A stretch of DNA of 64,000 nt from an uncultured Bryobacteraceae bacterium (GTDB taxonomy: Bacteria; Acidobacteriota; Terriglobia; Bryobacterales; Bryobacteraceae): contig CALJAM010000008.1 in assembly GCA_938027685.1 (NCBI GenBank), positions 124,001 through 188,000 of the forward strand, written 5' to 3'. The notes under the pieces were generated by a model. It was not told the origin of the DNA, did no database searches, and saw nothing but the letters and a program-made list of their open reading frames with translations. The first letter of the stretch is position 1; every line of letters starts with the position of its first letter. Shown here in pieces: positions 41,520-47,586 of the stretch. The position numbers and the translations under genes were made by a program.

Positions 41520-42182
41520 ATGGTTGCCTTGCTCGTTCTTGCAACGTTCGTTGCTTTTATCATCATCGACGTGCTGCTGCACCGCGAGAGGTATCGCTTC
41601 CCGGTCACCGAATCCGCACTGGAGACCGAACCTCACCAAGCACCGATGGTCGCCGGCGTTGCGCTGCCGGAGTCGCTTTCCTATCACCCTGGCCATACGT
41701 GGGCCATGCGCACGGGTCGAGAACGCATCCGCATCGGCGTGGATGAGCTGGCAGCGAGCCTGCTAGGGCGCATCGTTTCCATCGAGGGACCGCCCGTGGG
41801 CAGGTGGTTTCGGCAAGGGGAGAAAGGCTGGAAGGTAAAGACCGCGCACGGTGAAGCAGCGATGGTCGCGCCCGTGGAGGGGGAAATTGTCGCCATTAAC
41901 GAACGGGTGCGCCAGGATCCGTCTGTGCTGACCCGGGATCCTTATGGGGCGGGCTGGCTTTACGAGGTGTATTCCCCCGACGTCGAGGTCAGCCTGCGCA
42001 ATTTGCTTTCCGGCTCGCTGGCGCGGCGCTGGATGGAGTGGGCAGTGATGGAGCTCCGTCAGATGCTGGCGCCGCAGGCCTTCGCAACCGCTCTGGATGG
42101 CGGGAGGATTCAGCCTGAGTTGGGCGCGCAAATGAGCGCCGACCAGTGGCGGGAGGTAACCCGCCGGTTCTTCCTGGCTTGA
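41520..42182 (+). CDS. Membrane-anchored GcvH-like protein lacking the lipoyl lysine
   Basis: The ATG at 41520 follows AAAGGAG with good spacing and gives 220 residues; an in-frame start at 41430 would add 30 residues before the membrane segment and lacks a ribosome site. Residues 2-21 form one transmembrane helix, and residues 55-150 a GcvH/biotinyl-lipoyl fold: YHPGHTWAM, RIGVDELAASLLGRIVSIEG, APVEGEIVAINERV, TRDPYGAGWLYEV. In an ungapped alignment to glycine cleavage H protein, the lipoylated Lys (ESVKAA) falls on His110 (KTAHGEA), so it probably is not lipoylated. It is the first gene of a six-gene respiratory/signalling cluster and may be a structural or redox-partner subunit of the next two products. 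Confidence 0.85.
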   Translation: MVALLVLATFVAFIIIDVLLHRERYRFPVTESALETEPHQAPMVAGVALPESLSYHPGHTWAMRTGRERIRIGVDELAASLLGRIVSIEGPPVGRWFRQGEKGWKVKTAHGEAAMVAPVEGEIVAINERVRQDPSVLTRDPYGAGWLYEVYSPDVEVSLRNLLSGSLARRWMEWAVMELRQMLAPQAFATALDGGRIQPELGAQMSADQWREVTRRFFLA

Positions 42183-42192
42183 GGGGGATCGG

Positions 42193-42951
42193 ATGTTTGC
42201 ACTGCTGATCGATGTGACTCGTTGCGTCGGATGCGGAGCCTGCGTGGCCGCCTGCTGCGAGGCCAACGGCCTGCCTCTGGAAGAGGGTGCGGATCTCGGT
42301 CCTTACCACTACACCGTCGTTCGCAAGGTCCGCACCCGGCGGGGTGAGGTGTATTATCGCCTCCTTTGCATGCATTGCTTGGATCCGGCCTGCGCTTCCG
42401 TGTGCCCGATCGGCGCATTGAAGAAGAGACCCGACGGGCCGGTCACCTACAACGCCTCGATCTGCATGGGCTGCCGTTACTGCGTGCAGGCCTGCCCGTT
42501 CGAGGTGCCGCGGTACGAATGGAACAGCCGCGCGCCAAAGTTGGGCAAATGCTCCTTCTGCGCGGAACGGCTGCAACATGGTCAGGTCACGGCTTGCGCC
42601 GAGGCGTGCCCGACGGGGGCCACCCTCTGCGGAGAGCGCAACGAGCTGCTCAAGGTCGCCAGAGAGCGCATCGCCGCGGAGCCCGGCAAGTACCTGCCGA
42701 AGATATACGGCGAACGCGAAGTCGGCGGGACATCGGTCCTTTACATCTCGCATGTTCCCTTCAGGACCTTGGGCTTGCCGGAGCACCTTCCGCTCGAGCC
42801 GCTGCCTGGATACACGGGGCGCGCCCTTTCGCAGATTCCGCCGTTGGTGGGCTCTGCCGGCATTGTGCTGGCCGGGCTGTGGTGGCTTACCGATCGCAAG
42901 GCAGAGGTCGCCCGCGCCGAGCGCGAGACCAGATCGGGAGGTCGCAGATGA
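42193..42951 (+). CDS. 4Fe-4S ferredoxin-like electron-transfer subunit (HybA/NrfC/DmsB family)
   Basis: The 252-residue protein has sixteen-cysteine style cluster motifs: RCVGCGACVAAC, CMHCLDPACASVCP, CMGCRYCVQACP, and CSFCAERL with ACAEACPTGA. This is the four-cubane pattern of HybA/DmsB/NrfC subunits. A C-terminal hydrophobic helix (PPLVGSAGIVLAGLWWL) suggests a membrane anchor as in HybA. There is no obvious Tat or Sec signal at the N-terminus (FALLIDVTRCVG), so the side of the membrane is uncertain. Its stop overlaps the NrfD-like ATG (ATGA). It should pass electrons between the quinone-site membrane protein and an unknown catalytic subunit, which is absent here. Confidence 0.92.
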   Translation: MFALLIDVTRCVGCGACVAACCEANGLPLEEGADLGPYHYTVVRKVRTRRGEVYYRLLCMHCLDPACASVCPIGALKKRPDGPVTYNASICMGCRYCVQACPFEVPRYEWNSRAPKLGKCSFCAERLQHGQVTACAEACPTGATLCGERNELLKVARERIAAEPGKYLPKIYGEREVGGTSVLYISHVPFRTLGLPEHLPLEPLPGYTGRALSQIPPLVGSAGIVLAGLWWLTDRKAEVARAERETRSGGRR

Positions 42952-44096
42952 TGATCCGACGGCTGTTCTGGCGCTGGTTGGCCCTGGCGATTTTAGCCGC
43001 CGGCGTGTACGCAACCATCGTTCGTTTCACCCAAGGTCTGGGCGCCGCGACGAATCTCTCGGACCAGATGCCGTGGGGACTTTGGGTCGGCTTCGACGTG
43101 TTGTGCGGGGTCGGCTTGGCGGCGGGCGGCTTCACCATCACCACGGCGGTCTACATCCTGCACTTGGAAAAGTTGCGTCCGATCGTGCGACCCGCCGTGC
43201 TGACGGCCTTCCTCGGTTATCTGCTCGTCATCGTGGCGCTGCTATACGATCTGGGTCGTCCCTGGAACATCTGGCGCGCGACCGTGATGTGGAATCCGCG
43301 CTCGGTGATGTTCGAGGTCGCCTGGTGCGTGATGCTTTACACCACGGTGCTGGCGGTGGAGTTCTCTCCCCTGCTCTTCGACAGGCTGGGATGGCGGAGG
43401 GCGTCGCGGGCGGCGCGCTCGGCGATCGTGCCGCTGACGGCGGCCGGCTTTATCCTGTCCACTCTGCACCAATCCTCTTTGGGGAGCCTGTACCTGATTC
43501 TTCCGACCAAGCTGCACCCGCTCTGGTACAGCCCCCTGCTGCCCTGGCTGTTCTGGTTTTCGGCTGTCGCGGGCGGCCTGGCGATGGTAATCTTTGAGAG
43601 CGGGATGAGTGCGCGGGCTTTCGGGCGCGCGCTCGAGCTGGACGTGCTCGAGAAGTTGGCCAGGGCGATGACGGTCTTCGTGGGCCTGTTTCTTTTCCTG
43701 CGCTGGTGGGACTTGGGCCGCCGCGGGCATGCGGCGACTGCCCTGCACGTCTGGGGTGCCGATTCCTTGCCCGCGCGGATGTTCTGGCTGGAGATGGCGC
43801 TGTTCGTGATTCCCGCCGCTCTGGCTCTCTCCTCCCGTTGGCGGCGCAGTCCGCAGCGGCTGTTCGGCCTCGGGTGTACGATGGTGGGGGCGTTCCTGCT
43901 GCACCGGCTGAACGTCTCCACGACGGCGCTGGCCGCGGGGCAGAGCTATTTCCCCTCGTGGATGGAGATTGCGGTGACGCTGATGCTGGTGACGCTGGGA
44001 GTGGCCGCTTTCCGGTTCGCCGTGCGTCACCTGGCCGTCTTCGAAGGGCCCCGTCGTATGAAGGAAGAACGCCCGACGCAAGTCGTATATGCATAG
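42948..44096 (+). CDS. NrfD/HybB-family membrane quinone-interacting subunit
   Basis: The 382-residue protein has about ten hydrophobic helices and the HybB look: QMPWGLWVGFDVLCGVGLAAGGF, LLYDLGRPWNIWRA, STLHQSSLGSLYLI and HPLWYSPLLPWLFW. The family couples quinone or quinol chemistry to a ferredoxin-like subunit. No catalytic (molybdopterin, NiFe or multihaem) subunit is encoded in the cluster, so the electron source or sink must come from elsewhere. The start overlaps the FeS gene and the end overlaps the histidine kinase by 8 bases. Confidence 0.92.
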   Translation: MMIRRLFWRWLALAILAAGVYATIVRFTQGLGAATNLSDQMPWGLWVGFDVLCGVGLAAGGFTITTAVYILHLEKLRPIVRPAVLTAFLGYLLVIVALLYDLGRPWNIWRATVMWNPRSVMFEVAWCVMLYTTVLAVEFSPLLFDRLGWRRASRAARSAIVPLTAAGFILSTLHQSSLGSLYLILPTKLHPLWYSPLLPWLFWFSAVAGGLAMVIFESGMSARAFGRALELDVLEKLARAMTVFVGLFLFLRWWDLGRRGHAATALHVWGADSLPARMFWLEMALFVIPAALALSSRWRRSPQRLFGLGCTMVGAFLLHRLNVSTTALAAGQSYFPSWMEIAVTLMLVTLGVAAFRFAVRHLAVFEGPRRMKEERPTQVVYA

Positions 44097-45687
44097 GCTC
44101 GGCGTAAAGTTGACGGCGGGACTGGCGGCCGCAATGGCCGCCGTCCTGCTGTGGCTGGGCACTGCCAATCTTCGTGTACTCCGAGAGAACCTGGAAACCA
44201 CCGCCGTCCTTTCCGCGCGCAGCATCGCCGACATCATCTTCCGCGCCACACACGATTCGATGATGCAGAACAACCGCGAGGAGCTGTTGCACATCATCCA
44301 AAGCATCGGCGCCCAGAGCGGGGTGCGGAAGATTCGCGTCTTCAACAAGAACGGTACGATCCAGCTTTCGACGCAAACCAGCGAAGTCGGTCAAATGGTG
44401 GACAAGCGCGCCGAGGCCTGCTACGCCTGCCACGCCTCGGACACGCCGCTGGAGAAGCCCGCTGCGCATCAGACCTACCGCTTCTATCGCATCGGGCAGG
44501 AACGGTTGATCGGTTTGATCCGGCCGATCGAGAATGAGCCGGCCTGCGCCAATGCCTACTGCCATGCCCACCCGCCGTCGCAGCGCATCCTGGGCGTGCT
44601 GGACGTGGTGCTGTCGCTCGCCTCTGTCGACGAAGCGCTGGCGGCCCACGAGCGGCGCATGCGCGCACAGGTGTTGGTCTCCGCCGGGGTTCTGATGGCG
44701 GTCGGCGGGGTCCTGGTCTGGCTGCTGATCTCGCGTCCCGTGCGGAGGTTGATCGCCGGGGTCAACCGGCTGGCGCAGGGAGAGCTCTCCTGGCGTTTTC
44801 GCTTCGAGCGTCGCGACGAGATCGGCGCTCTGGCCCGCGCCTTCGACGATATGGCCGAGCAGGTGGAGACGGCCAATCGCACGCTGGAGGAAAGGATCCG
44901 ACGCAAGACGCAGGAGCTGGAGGCCGCGCAGCAGAAACTGATCCACACGGAAAAGCTGGCGTCGCTCGGGCAGCTTGCGGCGGCGGTGGCGCACGAGATC
45001 AACAACCCGCTGGCGGGCATTTACACCTATGCTCGCCTGCTGGAAAAGAAGGTCACGCTCTCAGGACCGGCGCTGGAATGGGTCCAGACCATTCAGCGCG
45101 AGAGCCGCCGCTGCGGAGAGATCGCCAACAGTCTGCTCGTGTTCGCCCGCAAACAGCCGACGCAGACCGCTCCCTGCGACCTCCGTACCATCGTGCGCTA
45201 CGCGCTGGCCGTGCTGGAGCACAAGCTCCAGGGCACCGGAATCGAAGTGGTGCAGCAGATCCCCGAGCTGCCGCTCATCCACTGCGACGGCTCTCAGATC
45301 CAGCAAGTGTTGACGGCGATTCTGGCCAACGCCGTGGACGCCATCGGCAGCCGCCCGGGCCGGCCGGGGCGGATCCGCATCTGCGCTTCGCTGACGCCCG
45401 ATGAGCGGGTCGATATCGCCATCAGCAACAACGGGCCGCCGATCCCGCCCGACGTACTGCCCCGCATCTTCGAGCCCTTCTTCTCCACCAAACAGGCGGC
45501 TGCCGGGGTGGGATTGGGGCTGGCGGTGGCGTACGGCATCGTGCAGCGGCACGGAGGCGAAATCCAGGTCGTCTCGAACGAAGAGGAAACCACCTTCCAC
45601 GTGCTGCTGCCGGTAGGCCCCGCGCCCACGCCCTCACCGCCGGAGTCATCCGATGTCCGAGCCGAAGCCCTCCATTCTGATCGTTGA
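44089..45687 (+). CDS. Haem-c-type membrane sensor histidine kinase
   Basis: The 532-residue kinase has TM1 (7-26), an extracytoplasmic domain (28-195), TM2 (196-215), HAMP (216-268), a coiled coil, HisKA with AHEINNP (His302), and an HATPase domain (DGSQIQQVLTAILANAVDAI; FEPFFSTKQ; GVGLGLAVAYGIVQRHGG). The outer domain contains CYACH (111-115), a canonical CxxCH haem-c motif, and CANAYCH (153-159), a Cx4CH type motif. It should sense redox state or a gaseous ligand through one or two c-type haems. It overlaps the NrfD-like gene (8 bases) and its response regulator (35 bases), so the signal probably concerns this respiratory module. Confidence 0.9.
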   Translation: MHRLGVKLTAGLAAAMAAVLLWLGTANLRVLRENLETTAVLSARSIADIIFRATHDSMMQNNREELLHIIQSIGAQSGVRKIRVFNKNGTIQLSTQTSEVGQMVDKRAEACYACHASDTPLEKPAAHQTYRFYRIGQERLIGLIRPIENEPACANAYCHAHPPSQRILGVLDVVLSLASVDEALAAHERRMRAQVLVSAGVLMAVGGVLVWLLISRPVRRLIAGVNRLAQGELSWRFRFERRDEIGALARAFDDMAEQVETANRTLEERIRRKTQELEAAQQKLIHTEKLASLGQLAAAVAHEINNPLAGIYTYARLLEKKVTLSGPALEWVQTIQRESRRCGEIANSLLVFARKQPTQTAPCDLRTIVRYALAVLEHKLQGTGIEVVQQIPELPLIHCDGSQIQQVLTAILANAVDAIGSRPGRPGRIRICASLTPDERVDIAISNNGPPIPPDVLPRIFEPFFSTKQAAAGVGLGLAVAYGIVQRHGGEIQVVSNEEETTFHVLLPVGPAPTPSPPESSDVRAEALHSDR

Positions 45688-47017
45688 CGACGAGCAGGTC
45701 GTTCGCGACTCGCTCGTGCACTGGTTCACGGAGGAAGGTTACCGCGTAGAGGCTGCCGCGAGCGCCGCCGAAGCGCTGTCACGCCTGGCCGCGGGCGATT
45801 TGGACCTGATCATCGCCGACATCCGCATGCCCGGCATGGACGGGCTGGAGCTGCTCGAGCGGGTCCAATCCGAGCAGCTCGACACCGCGGTTATCATCAT
45901 GACCGGCTACGCCAGCGTGGAAAGCGCGGTGCGTGCGCTCAAGCACGGGGCTTTCGATTACATCACCAAGCCGTTCGACCCCGACGACCTGTCGGTCGTG
46001 GTGCGCAACGCCATCGAGCAGCAGCGGCTGAAGCGGGAAAACCGCATGCTGCGCGAGCAGTTGAGCGAGACGCTGGCCACCACGGAACTGGTGGGCCAGA
46101 GCGAAGCCATGCGGCGCGTGCGCGAGCAGATCGAGACCGTAGCGCCGGTGGACACCACGGTGCTGATCGTGGGTGAGAGCGGCACGGGCAAGGAACTGGT
46201 CGCGCGCGCCATCCACCGTCTCAGCCCGCGCCGCTACAACCCCATGGTGGTCGTGCACTGCGGAGCCCTCACCGAGACGCTGATCGAAAGCGAGCTCTTC
46301 GGTCACGAGAAAGGCGCCTTCACCGGCGCGCAGTACCGCAAGAAGGGGAAGTTCGAGGCCGCCCACGGCGGCACGATCTTCCTCGACGAGATCGCCGATA
46401 TCAGTCTCAAGACGCAGACCGACCTGCTTCGCGTTCTACAGGAACGCGAGATCGTGCGGGTGGGCGGCACGCAGCCCATCAAGGTGGACTTCCGCGTCAT
46501 CGCCGCCACCAACCGCGATCTGGCGGAGCTGGTCAAGGAAGGCCGCTTCCGCTCCGACCTCTATTACCGCCTCAACGTATTCACCATTCACTTGCCTCCG
46601 CTGCGCGAGCGCCACGGCGACGTGCCCCTGCTGGCGCAGTACTTCCTCGAAAAGTACAGCCGGCAGATGAACCGCAGGTTCACGGGCTTCGACCGGGCCG
46701 CCATGGAGCTCCTGGTGAGCCACAACTGGCCCGGCAACGTGCGCGAGCTGGAAAACATCATCGAACGGGCCGTGGTCGTCGGACGCGAGCCGCTGATTCG
46801 AGCCTCGGATCTGGCCATCAATCGCCCGGTCCTGACCGACGACGATCTCACGCTGGAGGCGGTCGAGCGCAAGCACATCCTCCGCGTGCTCGAAGATTTC
46901 GGCTGGAACCAGACACAGGCGGCCAAAGCTTTGGGCATCGACCGCGTGACCCTTTATCACAAGATCCGCCGCTACGGGCTGAAGCCGCCCGAGCGCAGCC
47001 GCTCCACACGGGCGTGA
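45653..47017 (+). CDS. NtrC-family sigma-54 response regulator
   Basis: The 454-residue protein has an intact receiver (ILIVDDEQ; phosphoacceptor Asp56 in LIIADIRMPGMDG; YITKPFD), an AAA+ domain (GESGTGKE, GAFTGA, IFLDEIADI), and a Fis-type DNA-binding end (NQTQAAKALGIDRVTLYHKI). It overlaps the haem kinase gene by 35 bases, so the two are a cognate pair. Its likely targets are promoters of the same respiratory cluster, although I could not find a convincing -24/-12 site in the 261-base region before 41520. Its stop overlaps the GTG start of the archaemetzincin gene. Confidence 0.94.
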   Translation: MSEPKPSILIVDDEQVVRDSLVHWFTEEGYRVEAAASAAEALSRLAAGDLDLIIADIRMPGMDGLELLERVQSEQLDTAVIIMTGYASVESAVRALKHGAFDYITKPFDPDDLSVVVRNAIEQQRLKRENRMLREQLSETLATTELVGQSEAMRRVREQIETVAPVDTTVLIVGESGTGKELVARAIHRLSPRRYNPMVVVHCGALTETLIESELFGHEKGAFTGAQYRKKGKFEAAHGGTIFLDEIADISLKTQTDLLRVLQEREIVRVGGTQPIKVDFRVIAATNRDLAELVKEGRFRSDLYYRLNVFTIHLPPLRERHGDVPLLAQYFLEKYSRQMNRRFTGFDRAAMELLVSHNWPGNVRELENIIERAVVVGREPLIRASDLAINRPVLTDDDLTLEAVERKHILRVLEDFGWNQTQAAKALGIDRVTLYHKIRRYGLKPPERSRSTRA

Positions 47018-47586
47018 AACGGCCGCCGCCAGTGCCGGGCGCCCGTCTGGTCGCCGTAGGCGACTTTCCTGAACCCCTGCTCGCCGAGCTCTCCCGGCGC
47101 AGCGGCCTGCCGCGACTCGCCGGCCGTTTCGATCCCGCCCCGGCCTGGGATCCGGCTCGCGGCCAATGCGATTCCACCCTCCTCATTCAGGCGCTGCGCA
47201 CCCGGTACGCCATTCCCGTGGTAGGCGCGACTGCCCTGGATCTCTTCATCCCCGTGTTCAGCTTCGTTTTCGGCGAAGCCGAACTGGGCGGGCGCGTGGC
47301 GGTCTTTTCCATCCACCGGCTGCGCGAGGAATTCTACGGTCTGCCGCCCAACCCGGCGCGACTGCTGGAGCGGGCGCTGCGCGAGCTGCTGCACGAGCTG
47401 GGGCACGTGGCGGGGCTGGTGCATTGCATCGAGCCTTCTTGCGTCATGCGACCCTCCCACTCGGTCGAGCAGGTGGACACCCGCATGGACGACTACTGCG
47501 AGACCTGCTGGCAGCTGATCGAGCAACGACAGAGGTTGGCCCGCGTCAGTGACCCTCCGCCTCCAGAAAGCGCTCCGCTTCGATAG
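47014..47586 (+). CDS. amzA: Archaemetzincin-family zinc metalloprotease
   Basis: The 190-residue protein has the archaemetzincin catalytic core HELGHVAGLVHC (His127, Glu128, His131, His137 with Cys138), followed by CVM (Cys143) and CETC (Cys162, Cys165), which form the second, structural zinc site. Most relatives are archaeal; bacterial copies are scattered. The GTG start at 47014 overlaps the regulator stop (GTGA), so the gene is translated with the sensor/regulator pair. Its 3' end overlaps the convergent trxB by 41 bases. It has no signal peptide, so cleavage would be cytoplasmic. No substrate is known. Confidence 0.9.
   Translation: MKRPPPVPGARLVAVGDFPEPLLAELSRRSGLPRLAGRFDPAPAWDPARGQCDSTLLIQALRTRYAIPVVGATALDLFIPVFSFVFGEAELGGRVAVFSIHRLREEFYGLPPNPARLLERALRELLHELGHVAGLVHCIEPSCVMRPSHSVEQVDTRMDDYCETCWQLIEQRQRLARVSDPPPPESAPLR

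Follow-up and report, generated by a model that had tools for sequence, protein, structure and literature searches.

An H-protein-fold family without the lipoyl-lysine is linked to FeS/NrfD respiratory gene modules in Acidobacteriota and Fidelibacterota

The protein of 220 residues encoded at positions 41,520 to 42,182 of the forward strand of the window, the stretch of 64,000 nucleotides that was analyzed, belongs to a family of H-protein-fold proteins without the lipoyl-lysine, and the genes of this family are specifically linked to genes for 4Fe-4S (FeS) and NrfD-family proteins. We use the label GcvHL for the family, the window protein included. FeS/NrfD modules exchange electrons with quinones. 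We consider it fairly probable that GcvHL is a non-lipoylated, membrane-anchored accessory subunit of an Hmc-type quinone-linked module, where it would accompany an HmcB-like FeS protein and an HmcC/HybB-like NrfD protein; gene linkage and one fusion to an HmcD segment suggest that it is a member of the complex.

The window is part of contig C8 of a draft genome of 3.93 Mb, and among named relatives a Bryobacteraceae MAG (Acidobacteriota) is the nearest, with 81% identity across the GcvHL protein. An AAAGGAG stretch was found upstream of the ATG of the window gene, and its dN/dS values versus three relatives were 0.08 to 0.13, which are rough because dS exceeded 1; on the basis of these two features we regard the window GcvHL as a real gene. 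Pfam, the alignment, an AlphaFold model, and VIA-align together divide the product into an N-terminal transmembrane (TM) helix (residues ∼2–20), an H-protein fold (∼48–175) with His110 in place of the lipoyl-lysine, and a C-terminal tail with Asp-Gly-Gly (DGG) at 193–195. The Pfam GCV_H model matched residues 54–165 (E 8.7e-18; 64.8 bits versus a cut-off of 22.2), and a phmmer search against the PDB matched H-protein chains (best 2.4e-17). The AlphaFold model, built from 8 sequences, had a mean pLDDT of 84.5 with block means of 90–97 over residues 51–180, and VIA-align superimposed it on the H-protein 1htp with a Z score of 19.6 and an rmsd of 1.3 over 131 residues; 19 H-proteins or H-like proteins were found at Z scores of 12.5–19.6, with the next structure at 6.1. 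The membrane helix and GcvH fold of the original prediction were thus borne out. The scores against the NCBIfam gcvH models were below their cut-offs (66.4 versus 115.85 and 83.5 versus 117 bits), and on these scores and the missing lipoyl-lysine, membership in GcvH proper was rejected.

His110 aligned without gaps to the lipoyl-lysine of nine canonical GcvH sequences, including that of the same genome, and in the AlphaFold model it lies in the turn (109–111) of the lipoyl hairpin, between strands 102–108 and 112–116, which confirms the position proposed for it. The survey that followed covered Acidobacteriota and Fidelibacterota (the record title has Neomarinimicrobiota). Among 125 GcvHL sequences, the window's own included, position 110 was Gly in 77, His in 4, and Lys in a single sequence, whereas the lipoyl-lysine was retained in all nine canonical GcvH rows of the same alignment. 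The canonical rows were assigned by short length and an ESVK-type motif, and one spurious row (L094_2179) of the original 135 was removed. The GcvHL sequences were collected, among the matches listed, with profiles built from lysine-less members and yield no per-phylum frequencies; the resulting sampling bias is limited, though not removed, because the same profiles also find canonical GcvH. The residues at this position in 24 close members were Gly (12), His (3), Asn (3), Asp (2), and one each of Ser, Gln, Pro, and Glu, with no Lys, and lysine was likewise missing from the site in all 19 GcvHL of seven further Fidelibacterota stretches, some of which are already among the 125. Three of the four His110 members are the window protein and its two congeners, so the histidine is a genus-level detail. 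We conclude from the alignments that the absence of lysine, and not the histidine, is the conserved trait of the site. The proposal of a lipoyl fold re-used without its lysine was supported family-wide and in two phyla, but a special or metal-binding role of His110 was not supported, and the residue was rejected as a functional ligand, as histidine occurs in 4/125 and glycine is usual. Of the suggested "structural or metal-binding subunit," the structural part would fit better.

The lysines of the family also bear on the idea of a swinging redox arm, with a lipoyl group or another one attached to GcvHL elsewhere in the chain, an idea that we judge to be very unlikely. Some members do have a lysine close to the turn (position 112 in 32/125, 111 in 19/125, and 109 in 12/125), but no lysine column exceeds 33 of the 125 rows, the window protein has no lysine at 109–112, and its lysines 102, 105, and 107 are shared by 33, 8, and 13 of the 125, respectively. 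Lipoylation on a neighboring lysine was rejected on the same column count. Two observations had been named as speaking against the original prediction, lysine in the homologs and a lipoylated lysine elsewhere; in the sequences, the first was seen in one of 125 and no column pointed to the second. Chance mutation of a glycine-cleavage H-protein, or a decaying copy, is extremely improbable, even though the window protein scores above the Pfam GCV_H cut-off, as the dN/dS values are low, the pattern is common to two phyla, and a canonical lysine-bearing GcvH is encoded elsewhere in the genome; an isolated mutation or a decaying copy was rejected on the dN/dS values and on the residues seen at the site across the family. 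In a tree whose columns include the hairpin, the canonical GcvH rows formed one group with support of 100/100; the inner forks and the root are unsure because the columns are few.

The window GcvHL gene is followed, after a gap of 10 bp, by the gene for an HmcB/HybA-like 4Fe-4S protein with a C-terminal TM tail (42,193–42,951, forward strand), and from this gene onward every gene overlaps the next. The NrfD-family membrane protein (42,948–44,096, forward), which is HmcC/HybB-like and matched PF03916 at 2e-19, has a start codon of our choosing that overlaps the FeS stop. HmcB and HmcC were the best NCBIfam matches of these two proteins, although neither reached Hmc equivalog status (255.9 bits versus a cut-off of 420 and 318.8 versus 550, respectively). 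The scans with Pfam and NCBIfam therefore bear out the predicted place of GcvHL directly ahead of FeS and NrfD genes. The run continues on the same strand with a histidine kinase (HAMP/HisKA/HATPase by Pfam; 44,089–45,687) whose sensor part contains CxxCH and Cx4CH by motif search, an NtrC-type, sigma-54-dependent response regulator (Pfam; 45,653–47,017), and, as the last member, an archaemetzincin (peptidase M54; 47,014–47,586) that scored 130.7 bits versus the NCBIfam cut-off of 145 and 83.4 versus the Pfam cut-off of 24.4. No multiheme cytochrome (HmcA) was found in the window, the kinase ORF being the only frame of at least 60 residues with CxxCH, and HmcE and HmcF were not seen among the six genes of the operon. 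The motif HExxHxxGxxH is kept in 33 of 35 archaemetzincins.

Gene linkage was examined with profiles built from the first loci, for 100 GcvHL in 76 stretches. An FeS gene was present within 8 kb of 85 of them, NrfD near 82, the kinase near 63, the regulator near 57, and the archaemetzincin near 48; the 15 with neither FeS nor NrfD in that range include some, but not all, at contig ends. As the stretches were mostly chosen for their GcvHL, the reverse test from NrfD matters. NrfD matches below 1e-100 were obtained in 21 of 61 related genomes, with a GcvHL within 1.1 kb in 20 of the 21, and all ten Qrc-type NrfD matches had a GcvHL in the same cluster. Three HybB-like NrfD matches (46–48%) had none in stretches of 18.0, 9.2, and 8.7 kb. 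In the one exception among the 21, genome G018, the close FeS–NrfD pair was found without GcvHL and, at a contig end, with an ORF containing four CxxCH motifs upstream of FeS; an NrfD fragment at another contig end (G013:C47) adjoins kinase, regulator, and protease. The linkage of GcvHL to FeS/NrfD modules is specific, and the predicted association with such a respiratory module is borne out in this sense (20/21, 10/10, and 0/3).

In Fidelibacterota, the order GcvHL–FeS–NrfD–GcvHL was present in all seven stretches and was extended to GcvHL–FeS–NrfD–GcvHL–GcvHL–kinase–regulator–protease in five of them. An HmcD match begins one GcvHL, in L006 (41.6 bits versus a cut-off of 34), which is followed by a multiheme ORF of 395 residues; for ten other GcvHL, HmcD scored below the cut-off in two and gave no match in eight. 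GcvHL genes without an FeS or NrfD gene in reach were seen in L102, L103, L104, L106, L120, L122, and L050. The genome of L104 holds a second GcvHL, as do G133, G269, and G324 by match positions, and the second GcvHL of G181 is linked to FeS/NrfD (L105).

The FeS protein of the window matches the HmcB model from position 38 and therefore is without the signal region (the first 37 model positions), and window-type FeS proteins in general begin only a short way ahead of their first cluster motif, by a few residues. A twin-arginine-type motif, by motif match only, was present in the FeS proteins of all six stretches with the order FeS–NrfD–GcvHL (L110, L113, L115, L116, L119, and L123). PMC10924467 discusses FeS proteins that have a tail anchor but no signal and that may be carried along by a Tat partner; no such partner was seen among the genes of the window operon. 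A helper or partner may be needed by a window-type FeS protein without a Tat-type signal, and GcvHL could accordingly be an assembly or targeting factor, comparable to a redox-enzyme maturation protein, that helps the FeS/NrfD pair to mature or insert, rather than a lasting subunit. The distance of some GcvHL from complex genes would agree with this role, but two or three GcvHL per operon and the HmcD fusion look more subunit-like, and GcvHL also accompanies the FeS proteins that do have a Tat-type motif, in the other gene order. We consider such a factor rather unlikely.

Relatives have a second type of locus, ordered c7–Cys-rich GcvHL–QrcA–QrcB–QrcC–QrcD–GcvHL with TM helix. In the one cluster scanned (L058), the NCBIfam scores were 223.4 bits for QrcA (cut-off 180), 557.8 for QrcD (570), 317.5 for QrcC (400), and 229.8 for QrcB (440), and we name the cluster Qrc-like because the last three are below the equivalog cut-offs. 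The Qrc-like clusters in Acidobacteriota were L057–L067, L136, and L140; in a passage of PMC8076601, the QrcD proteins of its data set come only from Deltaproteobacteria. Two or all three of the kinase, the NtrC-type regulator, and the archaemetzincin were also found beside the Qrc-like clusters L066, L067, L136, and L140. The regulatory set thus travels with two kinds of complex, as it occurs there as well as in the window operon (44,089–47,586).

CxxCH or Cx3-4CH was found in the first 300 residues of 46 of 47 kinases. The sigma-54 site before the window GcvHL gene is weak (p 0.44), and −24/−12-like sites were detected upstream of 27 of 84 GcvHL at p ≤0.05 versus mononucleotide shuffles, a lenient control. 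The heme-motif kinase and the NtrC-type regulator may control the operon through sigma-54. A role of GcvHL itself as a signaling adaptor that informs the neighboring kinase and regulator of the complex's redox state is quite unlikely: the two genes are near GcvHL (63 and 57 of 100, respectively) in Hmc-type and Qrc-type loci alike, but FeS (85) and NrfD (82) are more strongly linked to it, and L105, L116, and L167 contain GcvHL with FeS/NrfD and no kinase within the stretch fetched. The accessory subunit is our preferred reading.

The residues conserved across the 125 GcvHL are His59 (124), Trp61 (124), Gly73 (125), Asp75 (123), Pro118 (125), Trp146 (123), and Trp171 (113); position 75 is Thr in all nine canonical GcvH. 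The C-terminal Asp, Gly, and Gly are conserved in 109, 123, and 113 of the 125, respectively, in a tail without counterpart in canonical GcvH. A TM-like segment was detected in 101 of 125, using a crude finder and with some GcvHL starts set too early, and among these 101 the net charge rose from the part before the helix to the part after it in 76, was unchanged in 13, and fell in 12. As positive charge follows the helix, the GcvHL domain probably faces the cytoplasm. As an accessory subunit, GcvHL would sit in the FeS/NrfD complex with its domain on the cytoplasmic face and, rather than swinging as a redox arm, would use its conserved surface and tail to provide a dock or scaffold.

Some GcvHL (L086, L085, L114, and L058) contain an added Cys-rich segment with, by eye, CxWM...C...C..C or four-Cys repeats, which may bind a metal or cluster; the window GcvHL has no Cys. 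An NqrA match in one GcvHL was weak (18 bits). The protein that we call c7 is a small TM protein (L058, 12,296–12,637, and ten other Qrc-linked copies) whose tail reads MADGGE in all 11 copies and resembles the DGG tails of GcvHL; the one copy scanned had no Pfam match. A search of the 61 genomes for the motif TxADGGE gave 37 matches, and the reversed control gave 3. All nine matches in which ATG is the second codon were on contigs with GcvHL matches, and the other 28 may include glycerate kinases. DGG also occurs in 17 of 49 regulators, where it is probably part of an AAA+ stretch. We tentatively extend the subunit reading, in a form that we hold to be doubtful, to the suggestion that lipoate-free H-protein subunits of the two phyla are a shared cytoplasmic coupling module of Hmc-like and Qrc-like NrfD-type complexes, which would cap the cytoplasmic side of NrfD and gate proton entry or bind a soluble redox partner; the docking peptide would be the DGG tail, which c7 shares.

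The open-licence literature (bioRxiv and most subscription papers being outside it) contained no paper with GcvH together with NrfD or HmcD together with GcvH, and among the open-licence papers listed no title or abstract start suggests that an NrfD complex includes an H-like protein. In a term search of PMC8076601, a review on NrfD-like subunits, no word starting with glycine or lipo occurred, and PMC9386147 treats NrfD and glycine cleavage in different places. GcvHL thus joins a known fold to known types of complex, and we found no description of this combination in the open-licence literature. Automatic annotation may call these proteins glycine cleavage H-proteins, because their Pfam scores exceed the GCV_H cut-off; if our reading is correct, an undescribed subunit of energy-conserving membrane complexes is concealed behind such names in Acidobacteriota and Fidelibacterota. 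The family would then clearly exemplify a cofactor-carrier fold whose shape was retained although the cofactor was lost throughout, an old metabolic carrier seemingly re-used in respiratory machinery, and would offer a concrete handle on what, if anything, occupies the cytoplasmic side of NrfD-type subunits.

Compared with known systems, GcvHL shares with GcvH (PF01597) the fold (residues 48–175) and the core residues His59, Trp61, Gly73, Pro118, Asn127, and Trp146, but it differs by the missing lipoyl-lysine, the TM helix, the DGG tail of ∼50 residues, Asp75 for Thr, and the respiratory context. H-protein-like proteins are also known under other names, such as NF045810, TIGR03077, and the Streptococcus GcvH-L (5a35; Z score 12.5), but the window GcvHL scored 33.7 and 37 bits against the first two, versus cut-offs of 150 and 144. 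The nearest precedent for a re-used H-protein is LbpA of Hdr-like sulfur oxidation (PMC6067878), likewise an H-protein paralog re-used in electron transfer. The lysine is retained in all 95 LbpA described there, and two Cys are conserved in most of them, whereas the window GcvHL has neither the lysine nor any Cys, and the Pfam and NCBIfam scans identify its neighbors as FeS, NrfD, kinase, regulator, and peptidase, with no Hdr-like cluster beside it; membership in LbpA was rejected on these three points. Like HmcABCDEF of Desulfovibrio, as described in PMC10924467, the window operon encodes an HmcB-like FeS protein together with an HmcC-like NrfD protein and has regulators close by, and the family adds the HmcD-like segment on one GcvHL (L006); the window operon differs in its additional GcvHL, in the absence of the multiheme cytochrome, HmcE, and HmcF, and in FeS and NrfD scores below the cut-offs. 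The window genome had no Qrc-type NrfD match at 1e-20, and the clusters of relatives differ from the QrcABCD menaquinone reductase by the extra GcvHL and c7, but they resemble it in their Qrc-like genes, which are flanked on both sides by GcvHL.
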